64,000 nt of DNA from Actinomycetota bacterium (GTDB lineage Bacteria > Actinomycetota > Thermoleophilia > BMS3ABIN01). The notes below the pieces were generated by a model, which saw nothing but the letters and a program-made list of their open reading frames with translations, had not been told where the DNA came from and searched no databases. The position numbers were made by a program, and so were the translations under genes. Positions 42,096-52,872 of this stretch are shown piece after piece. Within the stretch, counting starts at the first letter, position 1. Every line of letters begins with the position of its first letter. The stretch spans positions 191,229 to 255,228 of the forward strand of contig JAMCPM010000011.1 of the NCBI GenBank assembly GCA_023382335.1. The letters run 5' to 3'.

Positions 42096-43517
42096 CTAGG
42101 TGCGGGTGACCTCGATGACGCTGAAGGTGCCGCCTGGTGAGGTAACGTAGGCAAAATGCCCAGCCGTGATGACGTAGAGCGCGCTAGAGAGATTGACGAG
42201 GTCCTGAAGGGAGCTGACGATCTGCGGCAGACTTGCGTCGCTGATATCCACGACAGTGACCCTGCTGTTGTTCGCGGAGGTCATGAATGCGAGCCTGTCA
42301 GCGACGTCGACGAAACAGGACTGGCCGATATAGGCGTCACTGGTGATGTGGCTGACGATGCTCATTGAAAGCGGGCTGGAGACGTCGACGATGGTGAAGG
42401 TATGGTCCAGATTGCCGGGGACGTACAGATAGTTGCCAACTATCGCCATCTGGTCGCCACCACGGAAGTAGGATGAATTGAGGGAATCGGCAAGGATCGG
42501 ATTGGCGGGGTCGGAGATATCGACAGAGTTAAGGTAGGACTTGTCAGAACCCCCGTCGATCTGGTGCGATACGACATAGGCATGGCTGCCGCTGACGGAG
42601 ATGCCGTCGGCCCGGTAGAGCCTGACGTCGTCCTTGATGGAACCCACCAGGTGCGGCCCCTGGGGTGACGAGATGTCTACGATCGTCATCCTGTTGTCGA
42701 AAGGCGCGGTGATGTATGCATACTGGCCCTGGACGTCGATGTGCAGCGCCCCGTCCAGATTGACGTAATCCTGCAGCGAGCCCACGATGTAAGGATTGGC
42801 CTGATTGGAGATGTCGACGACGGTCAGGCGGTCGCTTGTTCCGGAAAAGCCGGTGACGACGAAGGCGTAGCTGCCGGAGACATGCACGCCCCAAGCCCGG
42901 TCAAGCCGTCCCGATGGATCGGTAAGCGAGCTTACCATGACCGGCGCAAGGGGATCGGTGATGTCGATTATGCTCAGGCTGTTGGATCCGCCCGAGGCGA
43001 TGTAGGCGTAATTACCCTCGATGTAGAGTCCGTCGGCGCCGCTCAGATGATCTGTATCCCTGATGGTCGCGACGAGCTTCATCGTCACCGGCTGGGCCGG
43101 TGCGGGATAAGCGTAGATATTTCCGCAACCATCCTCCACATTGGCCATGACCAAACTCCTGAAAGTGCTGACTCCCAAAGGAATATTGTACTGCAATGTG
43201 AAAGAAGCGCTGGCGCCGGCTGCAATCGTGCCGATCTCGACGGGCAAGGGTGAGGCGCTTGTGATCCCGTCGGAAGCCCGCGCACCGATAATGGATACTC
43301 CCGCCGCGTCGCCGGAGGCACGATTGGAGACGTTGTGCTCGACGGACAGGATCCGGTTGACATAATCATAATAGCTGGCCCAATGGATCCTGTTGGCGTT
43401 AAGTGAAAGGTCGGGCCTTACCCCGCATAGGTTTTCAGCAAGCGCGGTTCCAGTAAAGATGAAGAACAAGCAGGTCGAAGCAATGAGACTTGCAATGATG
43501 GCTCTTTTGGTCGTCAC
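42096..43517 (-). CDS. Secreted LVIVD-repeat beta-propeller protein
   Basis: Starting at GTG 43,517 (GGGGGG upstream) gives a signal peptide (TTKRAIIASLIASTCLFFIFTGTALA). A ~115-residue domain (NLCGVRPDLSLNANRIHW...) comes next, then repeated blades with the motif L-[ST]-[VI]-[VI]-D-[IV]-S: LSIIDITDP, LTVVDISNQ, MTIVDISSP, LNSVDISDP, FTIVDVSSP, VTVVDISDA, FSVIEVTRT. Seven repeats form an LVIVD propeller. Such proteins are extracellular or surface-attached with unknown ligands. It is a tandem paralogue of the next leftward gene. Confidence 0.85.
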   Translation of the reverse strand: MTTKRAIIASLIASTCLFFIFTGTALAENLCGVRPDLSLNANRIHWASYYDYVNRILSVEHNVSNRASGDAAGVSIIGARASDGITSASPLPVEIGTIAAGASASFTLQYNIPLGVSTFRSLVMANVEDGCGNIYAYPAPAQPVTMKLVATIRDTDHLSGADGLYIEGNYAYIASGGSNSLSIIDITDPLAPVMVSSLTDPSGRLDRAWGVHVSGSYAFVVTGFSGTSDRLTVVDISNQANPYIVGSLQDYVNLDGALHIDVQGQYAYITAPFDNRMTIVDISSPQGPHLVGSIKDDVRLYRADGISVSGSHAYVVSHQIDGGSDKSYLNSVDISDPANPILADSLNSSYFRGGDQMAIVGNYLYVPGNLDHTFTIVDVSSPLSMSIVSHITSDAYIGQSCFVDVADRLAFMTSANNSRVTVVDISDASLPQIVSSLQDLVNLSSALYVITAGHFAYVTSPGGTFSVIEVTRT

Positions 43518-43822
43518 TTGGCCCCCCAAGGTCGGTCCCTGTTACCATGACATTACTATTTGATTGTCAACTCCTGGTGCTCGTTTCCGTAGCAGGATGT
43601 TACGGCATCCTTCGAAGCATATTTATTTTATTCAAGCCTGCTAATCTCCGTATATAGGGGAATTCCCTACGATGATTTCTATTATTTAAACTGAAATGGT
43701 TTTATCTGAATCGCTTGATTCAGGGGGAATGCGTGGTCGGACTGCGGCGGCAGGGCAAAGATGGAAGAGAAGGTTGCTGCTGTATCTAGGTATGTTGAGG
43801 TTATAAGGGGTATTGCCTGTCT
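43518..43822. other. Intergenic region between tandem LVIVD genes
   Basis: About 305 bp without a gene. It holds a near-palindrome TAGGGGAATTCCCTA and a minus-strand TTGACA (43,565-43,570) that could be a -35 for the downstream LVIVD gene, though no good -10 is at the right distance. Nothing else is evident. Confidence 0.4.
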
Positions 43823-45373
43823 TTAGATGGCGGCATGCTCCACGAGCTCGATGACGCTAAACGTCCCCCCTGGCGAGGTGACGTAGGCATATTTGCCCGA
43901 TACCAGAACGTATAGTGCGCTGTAGAGAAAATAGTTGTCTTTTAATGAACCGATGATTTGTGGCGTTTCTATGTCTGCCACATCTATCACCGTGAGCCTG
44001 TTGGCGCTGGCTGAGGTCAAGTATGCAAGCTTGCCCGAGACGTCGACGAAACAGGACTGGCCTATGTAGTCACTGTTGGTTATATGGCTGACGACACTCA
44101 TCGCGGCCGGGTTGGCGATGTCGACGATACTGAATGTGTGATCGCGATTGCCTGGGATGTAGAGATAGTTGCCGATGACAGCCATCTGGTCTCCACCGCG
44201 GAAATGCTCTGAATTCAAGGAGCCGGCAATCTTCGGATTCAGCGGATCCGAGATGTCGATGGCGTTAAGATATGATTTTTCGGAACCGCCGTCCAGTTGA
44301 TGCGAGACTGCATAAACGTAATTGCCGGCGACGTGAATGCCGTCGACGCGGAAGAGTTTGACGTCATCCTTAAGTGAAGCCACGATACGCGGATCCAGCG
44401 GCGCCGAGATGTCAACGATAGTCACCCGATTTTGATTCGGCGACGTGATATACGCATAATTTCCGGCTATCTCGATGTGAAGGGCGCCGTCCAACTTATC
44501 GTGATCCTGGATCGAGGCCACGATGATGGGTGCATGCGGATCGGCCACGTCGACCACAGTGAGGCGGTCGCTCGCTCCGGAAAAACCTGTCACTACGAAT
44601 GCATAATTTCCAGAGACGTGTACTCCCCAGGCGCTTTCCAGCCTGTGCCCGGCAGGATCGTTGAGTGACGAGGCGACGAAGGGCGATTTGGGGTTGCTGA
44701 TATCGATGATCGATAGACGGTTGGATCCACCGGACGCGATATAGGCATAGTTGCCGTTGATATGAAGGCCGTCGGCGCCATCGAGGATCATGGTGTTATG
44801 GATAGTTGCAACGATCCTGGGCTCGACCAGAGGCGACGGCTCGGGGTAGGCATAGATATTTCCGCAGCCGTCTTCCGAGTTAGCCTTGACCAGGTTGTGG
44901 AAGCTGGTGATTCCCTCCGGGATCCTGTACATGATCCTGAAGGAAAAATTGCCGCCTCCCGCGACGGGGCCGATCTTGATCGGCATCGGCGTGAGATTGG
45001 TTACGCTTCTCGATCCGGTGGAACCGACTATCTCCACACCGGTCGCTTCTGACACGGTCATATTGGTGACGCTGTAATCGATGGATAGATGCCGGTTGAT
45101 GTAATCGGCATAGCTGCTCCAGTGGATGCTGGAGGCGTTGAGGGAAAGATCGGGTTTGACTCCACAATTGACTGCCGCCAAGCCCTTGTCAGTGAAGAGG
45201 AATAAGGAGGCGACGATGAGGATCGAAGTGAAGGCGAAGGCCGCGGCTGCCCGCGTTCTCACACCGCCGCCATAACGATCCGGCGATCGCCTGGCGCAAC
45301 GCTCAATTTCCATGGAATCGATCCATGGTCCGGTTGCGTGCAGATTCCCCAAAACCCCAAACCCCTTACCCAA
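43823..45373 (-). CDS. Secreted LVIVD-repeat beta-propeller protein (paralogue)
   Basis: The 516-residue protein is closely similar along its length to the preceding LVIVD gene: NCGVKPDLSLNASSIHW domain, DGCGNIYAYPEP joint, then blades LSIIDISNP, LTVVDVADP, VTIVDISAP, LNAIDISDP, FSIVDIANP, LTVIDVADI, FSVIELVEH. The N-terminus is longer and the start uncertain: the hydrophobic signal (AAAAFAFTSILIVASLFLF) begins about 40 residues in, so an internal start near 45,313 or later is possible. The pair likely arose by duplication; divergence suggests different partners. Confidence 0.85.
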   Translation of the reverse strand: MGKGFGVLGNLHATGPWIDSMEIERCARRSPDRYGGGVRTRAAAAFAFTSILIVASLFLFTDKGLAAVNCGVKPDLSLNASSIHWSSYADYINRHLSIDYSVTNMTVSEATGVEIVGSTGSRSVTNLTPMPIKIGPVAGGGNFSFRIMYRIPEGITSFHNLVKANSEDGCGNIYAYPEPSPLVEPRIVATIHNTMILDGADGLHINGNYAYIASGGSNRLSIIDISNPKSPFVASSLNDPAGHRLESAWGVHVSGNYAFVVTGFSGASDRLTVVDVADPHAPIIVASIQDHDKLDGALHIEIAGNYAYITSPNQNRVTIVDISAPLDPRIVASLKDDVKLFRVDGIHVAGNYVYAVSHQLDGGSEKSYLNAIDISDPLNPKIAGSLNSEHFRGGDQMAVIGNYLYIPGNRDHTFSIVDIANPAAMSVVSHITNSDYIGQSCFVDVSGKLAYLTSASANRLTVIDVADIETPQIIGSLKDNYFLYSALYVLVSGKYAYVTSPGGTFSVIELVEHAAI

Positions 45374-46982: not shown

Positions 46983-47033
46983 TTGACACGGGCAAAGGAT
47001 AATATATTATTTGAATATGCGCTCAACTATTCA
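46983..47033 (+). promoter_or_regulatory. Promoter and operator of the metal-resistance operon
   Basis: TTGACA (46,983-46,988) and TATTAT (47,005-47,010) are 16 bp apart, placing the transcription start close to the ATG at 47,017, so the message may be leaderless. A 12-bp palindrome ATAATATATTAT covers the -10. TGAATA (47,012-47,017) and TATTCA (47,028-47,033), 10 bp apart, resemble ArsR/SmtB operator half-sites. Autorepression by the first gene product is the simplest reading. Confidence 0.65.
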
Positions 47034-47421
47034 CCAAAAAGACGTTTGTGATGTCGCCTGCATTCACCCCGAAGCTGTAGAGCAGGCCAGGAAAAGGGCC
47101 TTGGACAGCCTGGCCGCTGCCGATCTTTCGCGTATCTTTCAGGTAATGTCAGACCCCACCCGCCTGCGCATCATCTCCATCCTTGCTGATGGAGAGCTTT
47201 GTGTCTGCGATATCGCCTCAGCACTGTCCATGACTGTATCCGCTGTTTCCCATCAGCTACGGACCATGCGCATGGCGCAGCTGGTCAAGTACCGCAAGGA
47301 AGGGCGGATCGCCTTTTATTCCCTGGATGATGACCATGTGCTGAAACTCTTTACCCAGGGCCTGGATCATCTCAGCCACTCACAAGCTCCGCGTACAACT
47401 ATTAACAAGAGGAAACGTTAG
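47017..47421 (+). CDS. ArsR/SmtB metal-sensing repressor, CadC-like
   Basis: The 134-residue protein has an N-terminal DVCDVACIHPEAVE and a winged helix FQVMSDPTRLRIISILADGELCVCDIASALSMTVSAVSHQLRTMRMAQLV. Cysteines in ELCVCD plus the two N-terminal Cys form the alpha3N site of CadC-type sensors, which bind Cd(II), Pb(II) or Zn(II). Metal binding would release DNA and switch on the exporters that follow. A TTG six bases earlier (47,011) is an alternative start. Confidence 0.85.
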   Translation: MRSTIHQKDVCDVACIHPEAVEQARKRALDSLAAADLSRIFQVMSDPTRLRIISILADGELCVCDIASALSMTVSAVSHQLRTMRMAQLVKYRKEGRIAFYSLDDDHVLKLFTQGLDHLSHSQAPRTTINKRKR

Positions 47422-47422
47422 G

Positions 47423-48076
47423 ATGGCAGCAGATAATGATCGCAATCTAAACAAACACTTCTTTCTCAGACGCGCCGTTAGGCTCGAATATTTCACCGTC
47501 GGATACAACATTATCGAGGCCGGAGTTGCCGTTGGCGCGGGTATCGCTGCTGGCAGCATCGCCCTCATCGGTTTTGGACTGGACAGCATCATTGAGGTCA
47601 CGGCCGCCGGAGCTCTTATATGGCGGCTGAAAAAAGAGCTCCGCACAGGTGAGAGCTTCTCCAGTGATGACCATTCAGCCGTGGAACGAAAAGCCCTTCT
47701 TGTCGTCGGGTTCACTTTTTTTGCCCTGGCTATCTACATCCTTACGGAAGCCATATATAACCTGGCTTCGGGCAAACAGGCCCAAGAGAGCATCTTGGGT
47801 ATCGTTGTCGCCATCCTATCCCTGTTGATCATGCCGACCCTGGCCTTTTTCAAACAAAGAACCGCGCGGGCGCTAGGCAGCAAGGCGTTGGCCTCGGATG
47901 CGATGGAAACCTGGGTCTGCTCATACCTGTCGCTGGTGTTGCTTGTGGGCCTGGCCCTCAATGCATTGTTTGGTTGGTCCTGGGCGGACCCCATAGCCGC
48001 GCTCGCCATGCTGCCGCTTGTGATCAAGGAAGGGTTTGAAGCAATCGAGGAAGCGAGGGAAGATGAAGAAGACTAG
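47423..48076 (+). CDS. CDF-related cation transporter, short form
   Basis: The 217-residue membrane protein with five or six helices resembles the membrane half of cation diffusion facilitators: HFFLRRAVRLEYFTVGYNIIEAGVAVGAGIAAGSIALIGFGLDSIIEV, where the D in GFGLDS is the metal-site residue, and LASDAMETWVCSYLS, with a second Asp. The usual cytoplasmic domain is missing. It starts 1 bp after the regulator's stop. It probably works with or beside the full CDF encoded next. Confidence 0.75.
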   Translation: MAADNDRNLNKHFFLRRAVRLEYFTVGYNIIEAGVAVGAGIAAGSIALIGFGLDSIIEVTAAGALIWRLKKELRTGESFSSDDHSAVERKALLVVGFTFFALAIYILTEAIYNLASGKQAQESILGIVVAILSLLIMPTLAFFKQRTARALGSKALASDAMETWVCSYLSLVLLVGLALNALFGWSWADPIAALAMLPLVIKEGFEAIEEAREDEED

Positions 48077-49025
48077 CCACGACCACGGCTTGGAGCATTC
48101 AACCCAGGGGCAGGGCATGACGCGGGGCCTCATCCTCGGCATCGCCCTTAATCTGCTTATCGTGGTTGTGGAGGTTGTCATTGGCCTCATGGCAAACAGT
48201 CTAGGTCTCCTGAGCGACGCGGTTCACAATTTTACCGATATCGCCGCCCTTGCCATAGTCTGGTTTGCTTTCACTCAGGCAAAGAAACCGCCTACGGCCG
48301 TCAAGACTTTTGGTTATCACCGCACCGGCATCCTCACCGCCCTAATCAACGCCCTGGTCATGGTTCTGGTCACTGTCTGGATTTTTTACGAGGCCTATCA
48401 GCGCTTCATCAATCCGCAGCCTGTTGGCGGTGCGCTGGTTATGATCACAGCCGGAGTAGCCCTAATCGCCAACCTGGCCGTAGTCGCCATCCTGAGAAGC
48501 CGGGGATCGGGCGACCTTAACATCCGCAGCGCGATGCTTCATCTTCTGAGTGACGCCGCTACCTCCGCTGCCGTGGTTGTTGCGGGTCTTATCATAATTG
48601 CCACTGGCTGGTATCCAATCGATCCGCTGGTGAGCGTCATGCTCGGACTAGCCATCCTATGGGGCGCCTGGAAGATTATCGAAGAAACTCTTGAAATCTT
48701 CCTGGAGGAGGCACCGCGTGCAGTGGATGTAAACCGCGTCGTAGCTGAAATGAAGGGTGAGGATGGCGTCATCGACGTCCACGACATTCATGTCTGGACC
48801 ATTGGTTCGCAGCTGTATGCTCTGAGCGCCCATGTGCTGGTGGAAGATATCAAGGTCAGTGAAAGTAATAAGATAATGAACGACTTAAGGGAAATGCTCT
48901 CCCATGATTTTGGGATTGTGCATTCTACCCTGGAAGTCGAGTCGTCCCCCTGTGAAAATGGTGGTCCTTACTGCGATATCAACAATCACACGGTGCGAGT
49001 GTCTGGTTCAAAGCACCGCCATTGA
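48063..49025 (+). CDS. Cation diffusion facilitator exporter (CzcD-like)
   Basis: The 320-residue CDF has a His-rich start (HDHGLEH), six membrane helices with metal ligands in LLSDAVHNFTDI and MLHLLSDAATSA, and a C-terminal cytoplasmic domain (DGVIDVHDIHVWTIGSQLYALSAHV) ending in CENGGPYCDINNH and SKHRH. It would export Zn(II), Cd(II) or Co(II) by proton exchange. It overlaps the short transporter by 14 bp. Control by the CadC-like regulator is implied by position. Confidence 0.88.
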   Translation: MKKTSHDHGLEHSTQGQGMTRGLILGIALNLLIVVVEVVIGLMANSLGLLSDAVHNFTDIAALAIVWFAFTQAKKPPTAVKTFGYHRTGILTALINALVMVLVTVWIFYEAYQRFINPQPVGGALVMITAGVALIANLAVVAILRSRGSGDLNIRSAMLHLLSDAATSAAVVVAGLIIIATGWYPIDPLVSVMLGLAILWGAWKIIEETLEIFLEEAPRAVDVNRVVAEMKGEDGVIDVHDIHVWTIGSQLYALSAHVLVEDIKVSESNKIMNDLREMLSHDFGIVHSTLEVESSPCENGGPYCDINNHTVRVSGSKHRH

Positions 49026-49063
49026 ATATACTTAAGAACCCAATCTTATTGAGGAGGTGATTT

Positions 49064-49591
49064 ATGGGCAAGAAGAAAAGCAACAAGAATAGAGGCAAGA
49101 CAAAACCGGCCGCCTCATCCGCCTTCCCTGTGGCCAAGGTACTCATCATCGTCGCCGCAACCACATTGAGCCTTGTCGCCGGTGTCTTTGTCTGGTTTCT
49201 GACACGGGACGGCTCATCGGACATCGTGGCGAAAACGTCCGCCAAATTACCGAGCTTCGCATATGATCAATCAGCTCCCAAGAACGCACCCAAAGCGTAT
49301 CAGTTTGCCATCGATCGGCCAGACCTTCTCTCGCAGGTCCCGTGCTACTGCGGCTGCGGACAGGATGCCGGTCACAAAAGCAATCTTGATTGCTTTATAA
49401 AAGAGCGCAATGGTGACAAGGTGCTGTTTGACCGCCATGGAGCTGGCTGAGACTTATGAGTAGAAATCGCACTGGACGTGCTCCAGTGGAATGAAGATGG
49501 AATGGCCATTAAGGACATAAGGCAAAAAATCGACTCCGAATACGGCGGCGGCAAATATGGGATTCCGACGCCCACACCACCGGTGGTTTAA
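49064..49591 (+). CDS. PCYCGC-family protein with two in-frame TGA codons (probable selenoprotein)
   Basis: The ATG follows GAGGAGGTGATTT. Decoding TGA at 49,448-49,450 and 49,457-49,459 as selenocysteine gives 175 residues: a basic N-terminus, one membrane segment (AKVLIIVAATTLSLVAGVFVWFL), PCYCGCGQDAGHKSNLDCFI (residues ~91-110), RHGAG-U129-D-L-U132-VEIALDVLQ, then a conserved-looking KDIRQKIDSEYGGGKYGIPTPTP and a TAA. In this family (PF13798 type) the same place holds CxxC after the H-G-x-x, so both conserved Cys are replaced by TGA while the downstream frame stays intact. A hairpin meeting bacterial SECIS rules follows. It closes the metal-export operon; a thiol/selenol redox or metal-binding role at the cell surface is inference. 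Confidence 0.85.
49467..49490 (+). promoter_or_regulatory. Bacterial SECIS-like hairpin
   Basis: CACTGGA (49,470-49,476) and TCCAGTG (49,482-49,488) form a perfect 7-bp stem with a five-base apical loop CGTGC; two more pairs below a bulged G extend it to 49,467/49,490. The apical loop begins 17 bases after the second TGA and 26 after the first, within the 16-37 window used for bacterial SECIS elements, and has G in its first two bases, so one hairpin could serve both codons. Confidence 0.7.
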
Positions 49592-49619
49592 ATGTGATTG
49601 CGACGCTTTCTGTTTTTAA

Positions 49620-49821
49620 AAAGGGGAATTAAGCGACCACAGGGAGCCGTCGTCTGGGCGTAGCCCAGACTTCCCACCGTTTCGCCGAGAGACAACGGAA
49701 CGAGGGAAACCGCAGGTCGAAATGGTGGGAAGTCGGGGCTTATTTTGACCAACAAAATGAGACCAGACGACGCTGGATTGGAGCGGGCTAAATGCCCCGG
49801 AAATCCAGTTAATTCCCCTTT
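49620..49821. ncRNA. Candidate structured RNA closed by a 13-bp helix
   Basis: About 200 bp free of genes folds into a closed multistem form: outer helix 49,620-49,632 with 49,809-49,821 (13 bp, perfect); helix 49,669-49,678 with 49,724-49,733 (10 bp, perfect); hairpin 49,652-49,670 (GTCTGGGC-gta-GCCCAGAC), which competes with 49,648-49,657 pairing to 49,763-49,772 (10 bp, perfect); hairpin ATTTTG/CAAAAT near 49,742-49,758; and helix CTGGATT 49,773-49,779 with 49,802-49,808 enclosing GGGC/GCCC. It matches no RNA class I can name (not tmRNA, RNase P or 6S). The strand is undetermined. Confidence 0.55.
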
Positions 49822-49852
49822 GGTTTTTGCTTTGTTTTCAGGGGTTTTGCCT

Positions 49853-50031
49853 CTTACAATTGGGTCTTACTACTGATTGTAAGTACCAGTGTAAGACCCT
49901 GCCGATCTGGAATCTGCTCCTTGTAATCGGGTGTTGCATCTGATTGCAACAGGCAATACAACACCCTGGAGCCTGAATCCTGGGTATTGATTCCGGGTCT
50001 TGATCCGAGATCAACAGGCAAATCAAGACCC
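49853..50031. ncRNA. Three tandem H-type pseudoknots
   Basis: Three units of about 67 bp each have the order A-B-A'-B'. Unit 1: A 49,853-49,860/49,876-49,883 and B 49,862-49,870/49,891-49,899. Unit 2: A 49,921-49,928/49,942-49,949 and B 49,929-49,936/49,959-49,966. Unit 3: A 49,987-49,992/50,009-50,014 and B 49,995-50,004/50,022-50,031. The paired sequences differ between units but pairing is kept (for example B = GGGTCTTAC, GGGTGTTG, GGGTCTTGAT with exact partners), which is covariation within one locus. It directly follows the multistem fold and may be part of the same RNA. Confidence 0.6.
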
Positions 50032-50132
50032 CGGCGTTAATAGGTCAGCATCTTAATACGTAATTAATAGGCGGATTAAGTGGCGGTCCGCGGGTTTTCC
50101 ACTGGAGCGTCATATGATTGGAAAGAAAACTA

Positions 50133-50161
50133 TTGACAGCTAGCTGAAATAGGTCTAAATT
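50133..50161 (+). promoter_or_regulatory. Promoter of the toxin-antitoxin operon
   Basis: TTGACA (50,133-50,138) and TAAATT (50,156-50,161) are 17 bp apart. Downstream, AGTAATATT and AGTAATATC (about 50,184-50,201) form a tandem repeat right before the ribosome site and may be the RHH operator for autoregulation. Confidence 0.7.
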
Positions 50162-50212
50162 AAAGACATACTCAGTAAGACCGAGTAATATTAGTAATAT
50201 CAGGAGGTGATT

Positions 50213-50467
50213 ATGTTGGGAAGAACAACTAAAACGATGACCGTCTCTTTGCCACCGGAAATGGTGAAAGAAGTCGAAAAACTGGCGGCCGTTGAAAAAA
50301 AGAGCAAGAGTCAGCTCTTTCGGGATATGTTTACCGTCTATGAAGAGATGCAGCGGGAGAAGCGCTGGCAGAACGCAAGAGCCGCTGGCAAGCGGGCATT
50401 CAAACGATTAAACATTACCTCGGAAGAAGATATTGACCGTCTAATCCACGAGGTAAGGGGTGTATAA
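50213..50467 (+). CDS. Ribbon-helix-helix antitoxin
   Basis: The 84-residue protein has a CopG/RHH fold: TKTMTVSLPPEMVKEVEKLAAVEKKSKSQLFRDMFTVYEEM, the strand for DNA contact followed by two helices, then a basic C-terminal part for toxin binding. The ATG at 50,213 follows AGGAGGTG. It overlaps the PIN toxin start by 8 bp, the standard type II toxin-antitoxin layout. Confidence 0.85.
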   Translation: MLGRTTKTMTVSLPPEMVKEVEKLAAVEKKSKSQLFRDMFTVYEEMQREKRWQNARAAGKRAFKRLNITSEEDIDRLIHEVRGV

Positions 50468-50876
50468 GGTCGTTTTTGATACGAACGTTTATGTTTCAGC
50501 TGCCGTATACGGCGGTAACCTAGAAATCCTCTTCCGCCTCTCTTGGGGCTACGATCGCCGGTTCAGGCTTTATACCTCAAACGAAATCCTCAAAGAAACC
50601 GTCAGGGTTCTGATTTCCGACAAGTTCCGCTTCACCAGGGAGGAAGTCTTTGACACCATCGCCATCATCGTCGATGCCGCTGATGTTGTCGAGCCCAAAA
50701 CCAAAATTACCGTCCTCTCCGATGATCCTGACAACCGCATCCTCGAATGCGCCGTCAAAGCCAAGGCGGACTTCATCGTCTCCGGCGATAAGCACCTGCT
50801 GGGCCTCAAGAAATACAAGGGCATTCCTATCCTGAAACCCGCTCAGTTCCTCGCCCTGCTCGAAAAAGAGCGATAA
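50460..50876 (+). CDS. PIN-domain toxin
   Basis: The 138-residue PIN protein starts at GTG within the antitoxin gene: VVFDTNVYVSAAVYGGNLEILF (first Asp), a middle acidic LKETVRVLISDKFRF region, and DDPDNRILECAVKAKADFIVSGDKHLLGLKKYKGIPILKPAQFL (Asp/Glu cluster). This is the COG1569-type PIN ribonuclease toxin. It probably cleaves RNA when its antitoxin is degraded and may stabilise the small element it lies in. Confidence 0.85.
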   Translation: MYKVVFDTNVYVSAAVYGGNLEILFRLSWGYDRRFRLYTSNEILKETVRVLISDKFRFTREEVFDTIAIIVDAADVVEPKTKITVLSDDPDNRILECAVKAKADFIVSGDKHLLGLKKYKGIPILKPAQFLALLEKER

Positions 50877-50944
50877 AACTATTGCAACATTTCCAATGAC
50901 GTGAAATGATAGCTTCAATTACTCTGTAAATATACGAAGGCAAA

Positions 50945-51309
50945 ATGAGCGTTAAAGAAATTCTTGGAAATCGGCTCCGGCAGATCAGAACCGAAAAGGG
51001 TCTCCCCCAGTCTGCCATCAGTGACGTATTAGGCTACAAGACTTCCAGCTATGTCAGTGACGTGGAAAAAGGCAAGTTCATTCCTCAACCTGAGAAGCTA
51101 TACGTCTGGGGCAAAGTTATGGGAATGACGAAAAGCCAGGTTGATGATCTTGTCGTCGATGTGAAAATGGAAGACATCGGCCTGTCTGATCCGGGCTTCA
51201 CACTCATGTTCAAAGAAGTACCGAACATGACAGCCGATGAAAAGGAATCGGTAATCAACGCCTATGAAGCTGTAATCAAGGCGCGAAGCGCCAAAGGAAA
51301 GAAAAAGTC

Positions 51310-51313
<4 letters not shown>
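50945..51313 (+). CDS. XRE-family regulator paired with the serine recombinase
   Basis: The 122-residue protein has an N-terminal HTH (LGNRLRQIRTEKGLPQSAISDVLGYKTSSYVSDVEKGKFIPQPEKLYVWGKVMG) and a C-terminal ~45-residue tail. Its stop overlaps the recombinase ATG (ATGA), so the two are co-translated; it may control excision or recombinase supply. It differs from the prophage XRE gene at 32,325. Confidence 0.8.

Positions 51314-52872
<1,559 letters not shown>

Follow-up and report, generated by a model that had tools for sequence, protein, structure and literature searches.

The final gene of an ArsR-CDF-CDF operon in the window (the whole stretch of 64,000 nucleotides analysed here) raises the question of whether it ends at the stop codon where it appears to end. 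Its ATG lies at 49,064, preceded by AGGAGGTG, and under translation table 11 the open reading frame (ORF) comprises 128 amino acids and stops at 49,450. The same frame runs on past this TGA and a second one to a TAA at 49,589-49,591, and when both TGAs are read as selenocysteine (Sec) the product has 175 amino acids, with Sec129 and Sec132 in the motif HGAG-U-D-L-U-VEIALDVLQW. The initial annotation had proposed such a two-selenocysteine PCYCGC protein, and its positions for the ATG, the two TGAs and the TAA proved exact when the window was read again (Table 1).

We consider it very probable that the locus encodes one selenoprotein in which both UGAs specify Sec, forming U-D-L-U, and which, as the last product of the operon, would have a redox or metal role on the side of the exporter. 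The proposal as a whole is supported by alignment, by the sel genes of the genome, by a covarying hairpin and by the operon itself. Under standard annotation, 47 codons are lost from the 3' end of the gene, and its likely active site is lost with them.

Table 1. Predicted features of the double-TGA gene and of the operon that it closes (window coordinates)
Feature	Position	Strand	Details
ArsR/SmtB-type metal-sensing repressor	47011..47421	+	PF01022 1.1e-17; NF033788 2.2e-28
Short CDF-family transporter subunit	47423..48076	+	PF01545 7.5e-19
Full CDF cation exporter, ZitB-like, with ZT_dimer	48036..49025	+	TIGR01297 263.7 bits; PF16916 3.7e-12
Putative PCYCGC (PF13798) double selenoprotein, 175 aa	49064..49591	+	Hydrophobic N-terminal anchor (predicted) ~22-46, PCYCGC domain after it
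First UGA, predicted to code for Sec129	49448..49450	+	Invariant Cys/Sec column
Second UGA, predicted to code for Sec132	49457..49459	+	Invariant Cys/Sec column
Bacterial SECIS-like hairpin	49470..49488	+	7-bp stem 49470-49476 / 49482-49488, loop CGUGC 49477-49481

Family membership and the two TGA positions

The 175-amino-acid product matches PF13798 at 7e-32 (110.9 bits against a gathering cut-off of 25). The match covers profile positions 32-151 of 153, and the C-terminus beyond the TGAs is thus normal for the family, as had been claimed for it. The protein is most likely a membrane-anchored PCYCGC domain that faces outward, wherein the hydrophobic N-terminus would be the anchor that holds this domain outside the membrane.

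Both TGA codons fall on Cys columns that are invariant in an alignment of 13 relatives and in a later one of 68 sequences, which is the correspondence that the initial annotation had expected and is far beyond chance. Also invariant among the 68 sequences are the three PCYCGC cysteines, the DC cysteine and one His, giving six invariant Cys/Sec positions and one invariant His in total. The window protein carries the entire PCYCGC, DC and CxxC pattern as C94, C96, C98, C110, H125, Sec129 and Sec132.

There are 122 PF13798 copies among those examined, with 22 UxxU, 21 UxxC and 79 CxxC forms (13, 12 and 70 distinct sequences, respectively), and CxxU is absent from this set. The same genome holds a second, diverged UxxU copy with the same two TGAs (C13:160,654-160,953), and 20 copies beyond the genome's own two are also U-x-x-U. 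This recurrence of the TGA pair bears out the argument that two chance nonsense mutations are improbable. In addition, a separate assembly that is 97% identical over the aligned region (L039) retains both TGAs.

The domain is present in 19 of the 19 genomes of the organism's family, and the two-TGA form is found in 11 of them. Outside that family, a sample of 399 genomes of the class yielded a single further genome with the domain. Within the best 80 of 477 candidate PF13798 loci in the named genome collection, which are the loci examined here, the relatives that have names are BMS3Abin01 and uncultured Actinomycetota that carry the label Thermoleophilia or Actinomycetes. On the tree, UxxU requires three state changes, and well-supported branches leave no way around at least two of them. 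Sister species (support 100/100) also differ in a tandem second gene, which has UxxU in one of the two and UxxC in the other. This tandem PCYCGC gene, located behind the UxxU gene, reads UPTU in L052 (3001-4030) and L135 and UTTC in L027, so that the second position of its motif has switched between Sec and Cys.

The codons past the TGAs evolve as coding sequence. Between the window gene and L039, the 34 codons past the second TGA differ by five synonymous and no nonsynonymous changes. For the codons after the TGAs, omega is 0.08 between L027 and L127 and 0.05-0.16 in several other close pairs, with higher values for L002 and L050 (0.41) and for L048 and L133 (0.73); values for distant and paralogous pairs are near saturation and hence uninformative. 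Two nonsense mutations in a pseudogene, or TGAs introduced by assembly error, would agree with the stop assigned by a table-11 caller, but the same TGA pair recurs in the diverged second copy, in further genera and in genomes that were assembled independently, and the downstream changes in the comparison with L039 are exclusively synonymous. Error and decay are excluded because both TGAs are conserved in the second copy and in L039, and we regard either one as vanishingly improbable.

Predicted selenocysteine decoding and the SECIS-like hairpin

The genome (99% complete, 2.45 Mb) contains all four of the genes whose presence the initial annotation had proposed to check. These are selA, selB and selC, clustered at C16:18,008-22,359, and selD on C14, wherein selC is a tRNA-Sec with anticodon TCA (ARAGORN). 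The selD gene (G000 C14:29557-30489, L019) has an in-frame TGA at GUACK, the well-known Sec site of this protein, and is thus itself a selenoprotein gene.

A genome-wide reassignment of TGA (code 4 or 25) would also account for a sense TGA in the window gene. Neighbouring genes that end at ordinary TGA stops refute this candidate, which is hardly credible: TGA is not reassigned genome-wide, because selA and selB contain no TGA within their frames and the codon terminates the preceding CDF gene. Moreover, the internal TGA of selD is located at the GUACK site, in a genome with a complete Sec system. The most likely mechanism is that both UGAs of the window gene are decoded by the genome's SelA/SelB/SelC/SelD system.

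A correctly spaced SECIS-like hairpin had also been claimed, and the evidence in its favour comes from covariation in the stem, conservation of the loop and spacing rather than from folding energy. The hairpin (CACUGGA-CGUGC-UCCAGUG) places its loop G 27 nt past the first UGA and 18 nt past the second. In a set of 18 distinct Sec members, pairing is preserved in 96.8% of the pair cells, compared with 18-45% upon sliding by 1-3 columns, and the GUG loop is invariant. This set is without the UxxC paralogues L032, L036, L053 and L125, which do not share the stem and wherein the hairpin folds in a different register. Compensatory changes are found at two pairs and comprise 9 cells (A-U to U-A, U-G or G-C; A-U to C-G). 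Pairs in which both sides have changed number two, a count that column shuffles match in 267 of 500 cases, but the paired cells and the covariation score exceed the shuffles (0 of 500 reach these values).

Pairing at the hairpin site is 95.7% for UxxU genes, 81.4% for all UxxC genes, 56% for Cys homologues from the same phylum and 35% for the remaining Cys homologues. Folding energies relative to synonymous shuffles give z values of +0.2 to -2.1 for UxxU members, a modest advantage that is unremarkable alone. An Rfam search of 47,000-51,000 with E up to 1 returned no SECIS-type family; a match to mir-617 in the same interval was rejected as a chance match on an inverted repeat.

Most UxxC and all UxxU genes share the position of the hairpin, and therefore the SECIS of the first UGA would be able to serve the second without being moved. 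The single hairpin of the window gene would lie within reach of both UGAs. Thus, we infer that the second Sec may have been gained by a mere change of TGT or TGC to TGA, with the SECIS staying in place.

Perhaps only the first UGA specifies Sec, and translation mostly terminates at the second such that most of the product ends at residue 131. The UxxC relatives show that this family can do with Sec at the first site only, and efficient Sec decoding would not be expected at two UGAs spaced by 9 nt. However, the codons past the second UGA are constrained and the family C-terminus is kept, the hairpin follows the second UGA at 18 nt, and TGA is retained at the second site in all 13 distinct UxxU genes, as judged by a search pattern to which TAA and TAG are invisible at this position. 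We therefore judge decoding of the first UGA alone to be improbable.

The ArsR-CDF operon and its surroundings

The placement of the PCYCGC gene at the end of a heavy-metal export operon was confirmed, as it is preceded by genes for an ArsR-type repressor and two CDF proteins. The nearest solved structures to the repressor are SmtB (3.5e-26) and CadC (2.4e-19). It carries DVCDVAC near its N-terminus as well as ELCVCD, which we take to be the cysteine pattern of Cd/Pb/Zn sensors. The two CDF ORFs (47423-49025) share an overlap of 41 nt, and no ZT_dimer domain was matched in the short CDF protein. The exporter may be a heteromer of the short and full CDF proteins. At the UxxU loci L002, L046, L048 and L050, tblastn revealed the long CDF gene only.

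A CDF homologue is located in the examined flank of 22 of 22 UxxU genes, 2 of 21 UxxC genes (one tandem gene counted twice) and 0 of 79 CxxC genes. The difference between UxxU and UxxC has a Fisher p of 2.6e-10, a value that ignores relatedness; the UxxU sequences are related, so their 22 operon links are not 22 independent events. The UxxC genes L040, L043 and L045 have no CDF gene and adjoin a gene that, judging from its sequence, presumably encodes an NAD-dependent DNA ligase. The genome's second UxxU copy likewise has a ligase gene of this kind as a neighbour, and an ArsR-CDF operon of its own. In the mechanism that we propose, the product would be a membrane-anchored PCYCGC domain beside the CDF exporter, and the replacement of the second Cys by Sec would be a specialisation of the exporter-linked branch.

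Several repeats lie just 3' of the PCYCGC gene. One of them, a 158-bp element (49651-49808) that contains a long inverted repeat, is a dispersed repeat, with five more full or partial copies in the genome that are 77-92% identical. Between this element and the next gene (49855-50060) there are short imperfect inverted repeats, such as TTGTAATCGG...CTGATTGCAA. The region 50945-52872 encodes an HTH-like regulator and a 507-amino-acid recombinase-like protein, and the recombinase-like ORF runs at its end into a tRNA-Pro gene on the minus strand (52796-52872), which suggests an integrated mobile element beside the operon. On the minus strand at 42096-45373, two adjacent and similar large proteins (477 and 516 amino acids) have the appearance of a tandem duplication.

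Possible function and relation to known families

An AlphaFold2 model of the protein is confident, with a pLDDT of 91.9, and a Foldseek search gave nothing at E <= 0.001. Among structures, the closest match comes from the periplasmic domain of CcmH (Z 4.7 over 74 residues), a weakly similar fold in which the C-terminal helices and the CxxC align with U-x-x-U. Comparison of profiles gives 79.8% for CcmH, with the U-x-x-U site falling on the redox CxxC; in the controls, none of 200 column shuffles was as good, reversal gave 1%, and masking of Cys gave 71.6%. The gathering cut-off of PF03918 (CcmH) is not reached, since only one of the 68 members touches this profile (E 0.017), and a search of PDB sequences with the family profile found nothing meaningful. 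CcmH is exported and membrane-anchored, as is predicted for the window protein. It differs from the window protein in having no PCYCGC part, in using Cys rather than Sec and in its role in cytochrome c maturation, and it was not found in the genome. As a remote profile similarity, the CcmH match is a weak lead.

The position of U-x-x-U on the CcmH CxxC points to a selenol/thiol redox site, and the operon together with the soft ligands points to the handling of Cd, Zn or Pb. From the gene neighbourhood and this remote similarity, the protein may be an extracytoplasmic exporter partner that acts in selenol redox chemistry or in handling soft metals (Cd/Zn/Pb), and these two roles may coincide.

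One alternative, which is plausible although its chances are somewhat below even, is that the protein serves as a soft-metal buffer and nothing else, wherein PCYCGC, DCF and U-x-x-U would coordinate Cd/Zn/Pb on the surface of the cell without any redox cycling. All of the UxxU proteins are beside ArsR-CDF operons, the alignment holds six invariant Cys/Sec and an invariant His, the regulator is closest to SmtB and CadC, and Sec has already been proposed as a metal ligand in other metal-resistance selenoproteins (PMC13188914). However, Sec appears first at the first position (UxxC is common, CxxU is 0 of 122), as in redox U-x-x-C motifs, and the alignment with the redox CxxC of CcmH likewise speaks against a buffer. 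Returning to the exporter partner, a more specific version is tentative and perhaps doubtful. In this version, metal efflux would have a selenium-dependent branch: in one actinobacterial family, the exporter-linked PCYCGC protein would have gained a second Sec repeatedly, because one SECIS that already served the first UGA also reaches the second Cys codon. For the Cd/Zn/Pb that the CDF pump exports, the diselenol would then act as a redox or metal relay resembling CcmH.

PF13798 has been described before as a selenoprotein family, OS_HP4/CYCXC, with UxxC and one Sec (PMC13188914, PMC9312934). OS_HP4 (PF13798/NF041379) has the Pfam family and the PCYCGC motif in common with the window protein (PMC13188914). 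In contrast to the published U-x-x-C pattern, the window gene has two TGAs and U-D-L-U, resides in an ArsR-CDF operon and scores 82.1 bits against NF041379 ("CYCXC family (seleno)protein"), which is under the NCBI equivalog cut-off of 90. The two-Sec U-x-x-U is listed for different families, namely the metal-binding protein NF041115, Prx-like PF00578 and FmdB TIGR02605 (PMC13188914). In the genome of the window, NF041115 gives only sub-threshold matches, none with a TGA. The PCYCGC lipoproteins of Bacillales share the PF13798 family and the invariant Cys set (PMC13068155), but they are all-Cys and lipid-anchored, with no CDF gene in the examined flanks.

The initial suggestion that U-D-L-U in this family may be undescribed thus appears to hold for the double-Sec form and its link to a CDF operon, but not for PF13798 as a selenoprotein family. 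No report of UxxU in PF13798 or of the CDF link was found in the literature examined, a scope outside of which fall Zhang & Gladyshev 2007 and Haft & Tolstoy 2025. What appears undescribed is therefore the double-Sec form of PF13798 and its association with ArsR-CDF operons, rather than a new selenoprotein family.

The occurrence of CxxC, UxxC and UxxU in one family with one hairpin provides a natural series for how a single SECIS serves two UGAs. For PF13798, a family of unknown function, the similarity to CcmH is a first lead to its role. Finally, a conserved U-x-x-U that is tied to one type of operon connects the use of selenium with metal efflux in a way that can be tested.
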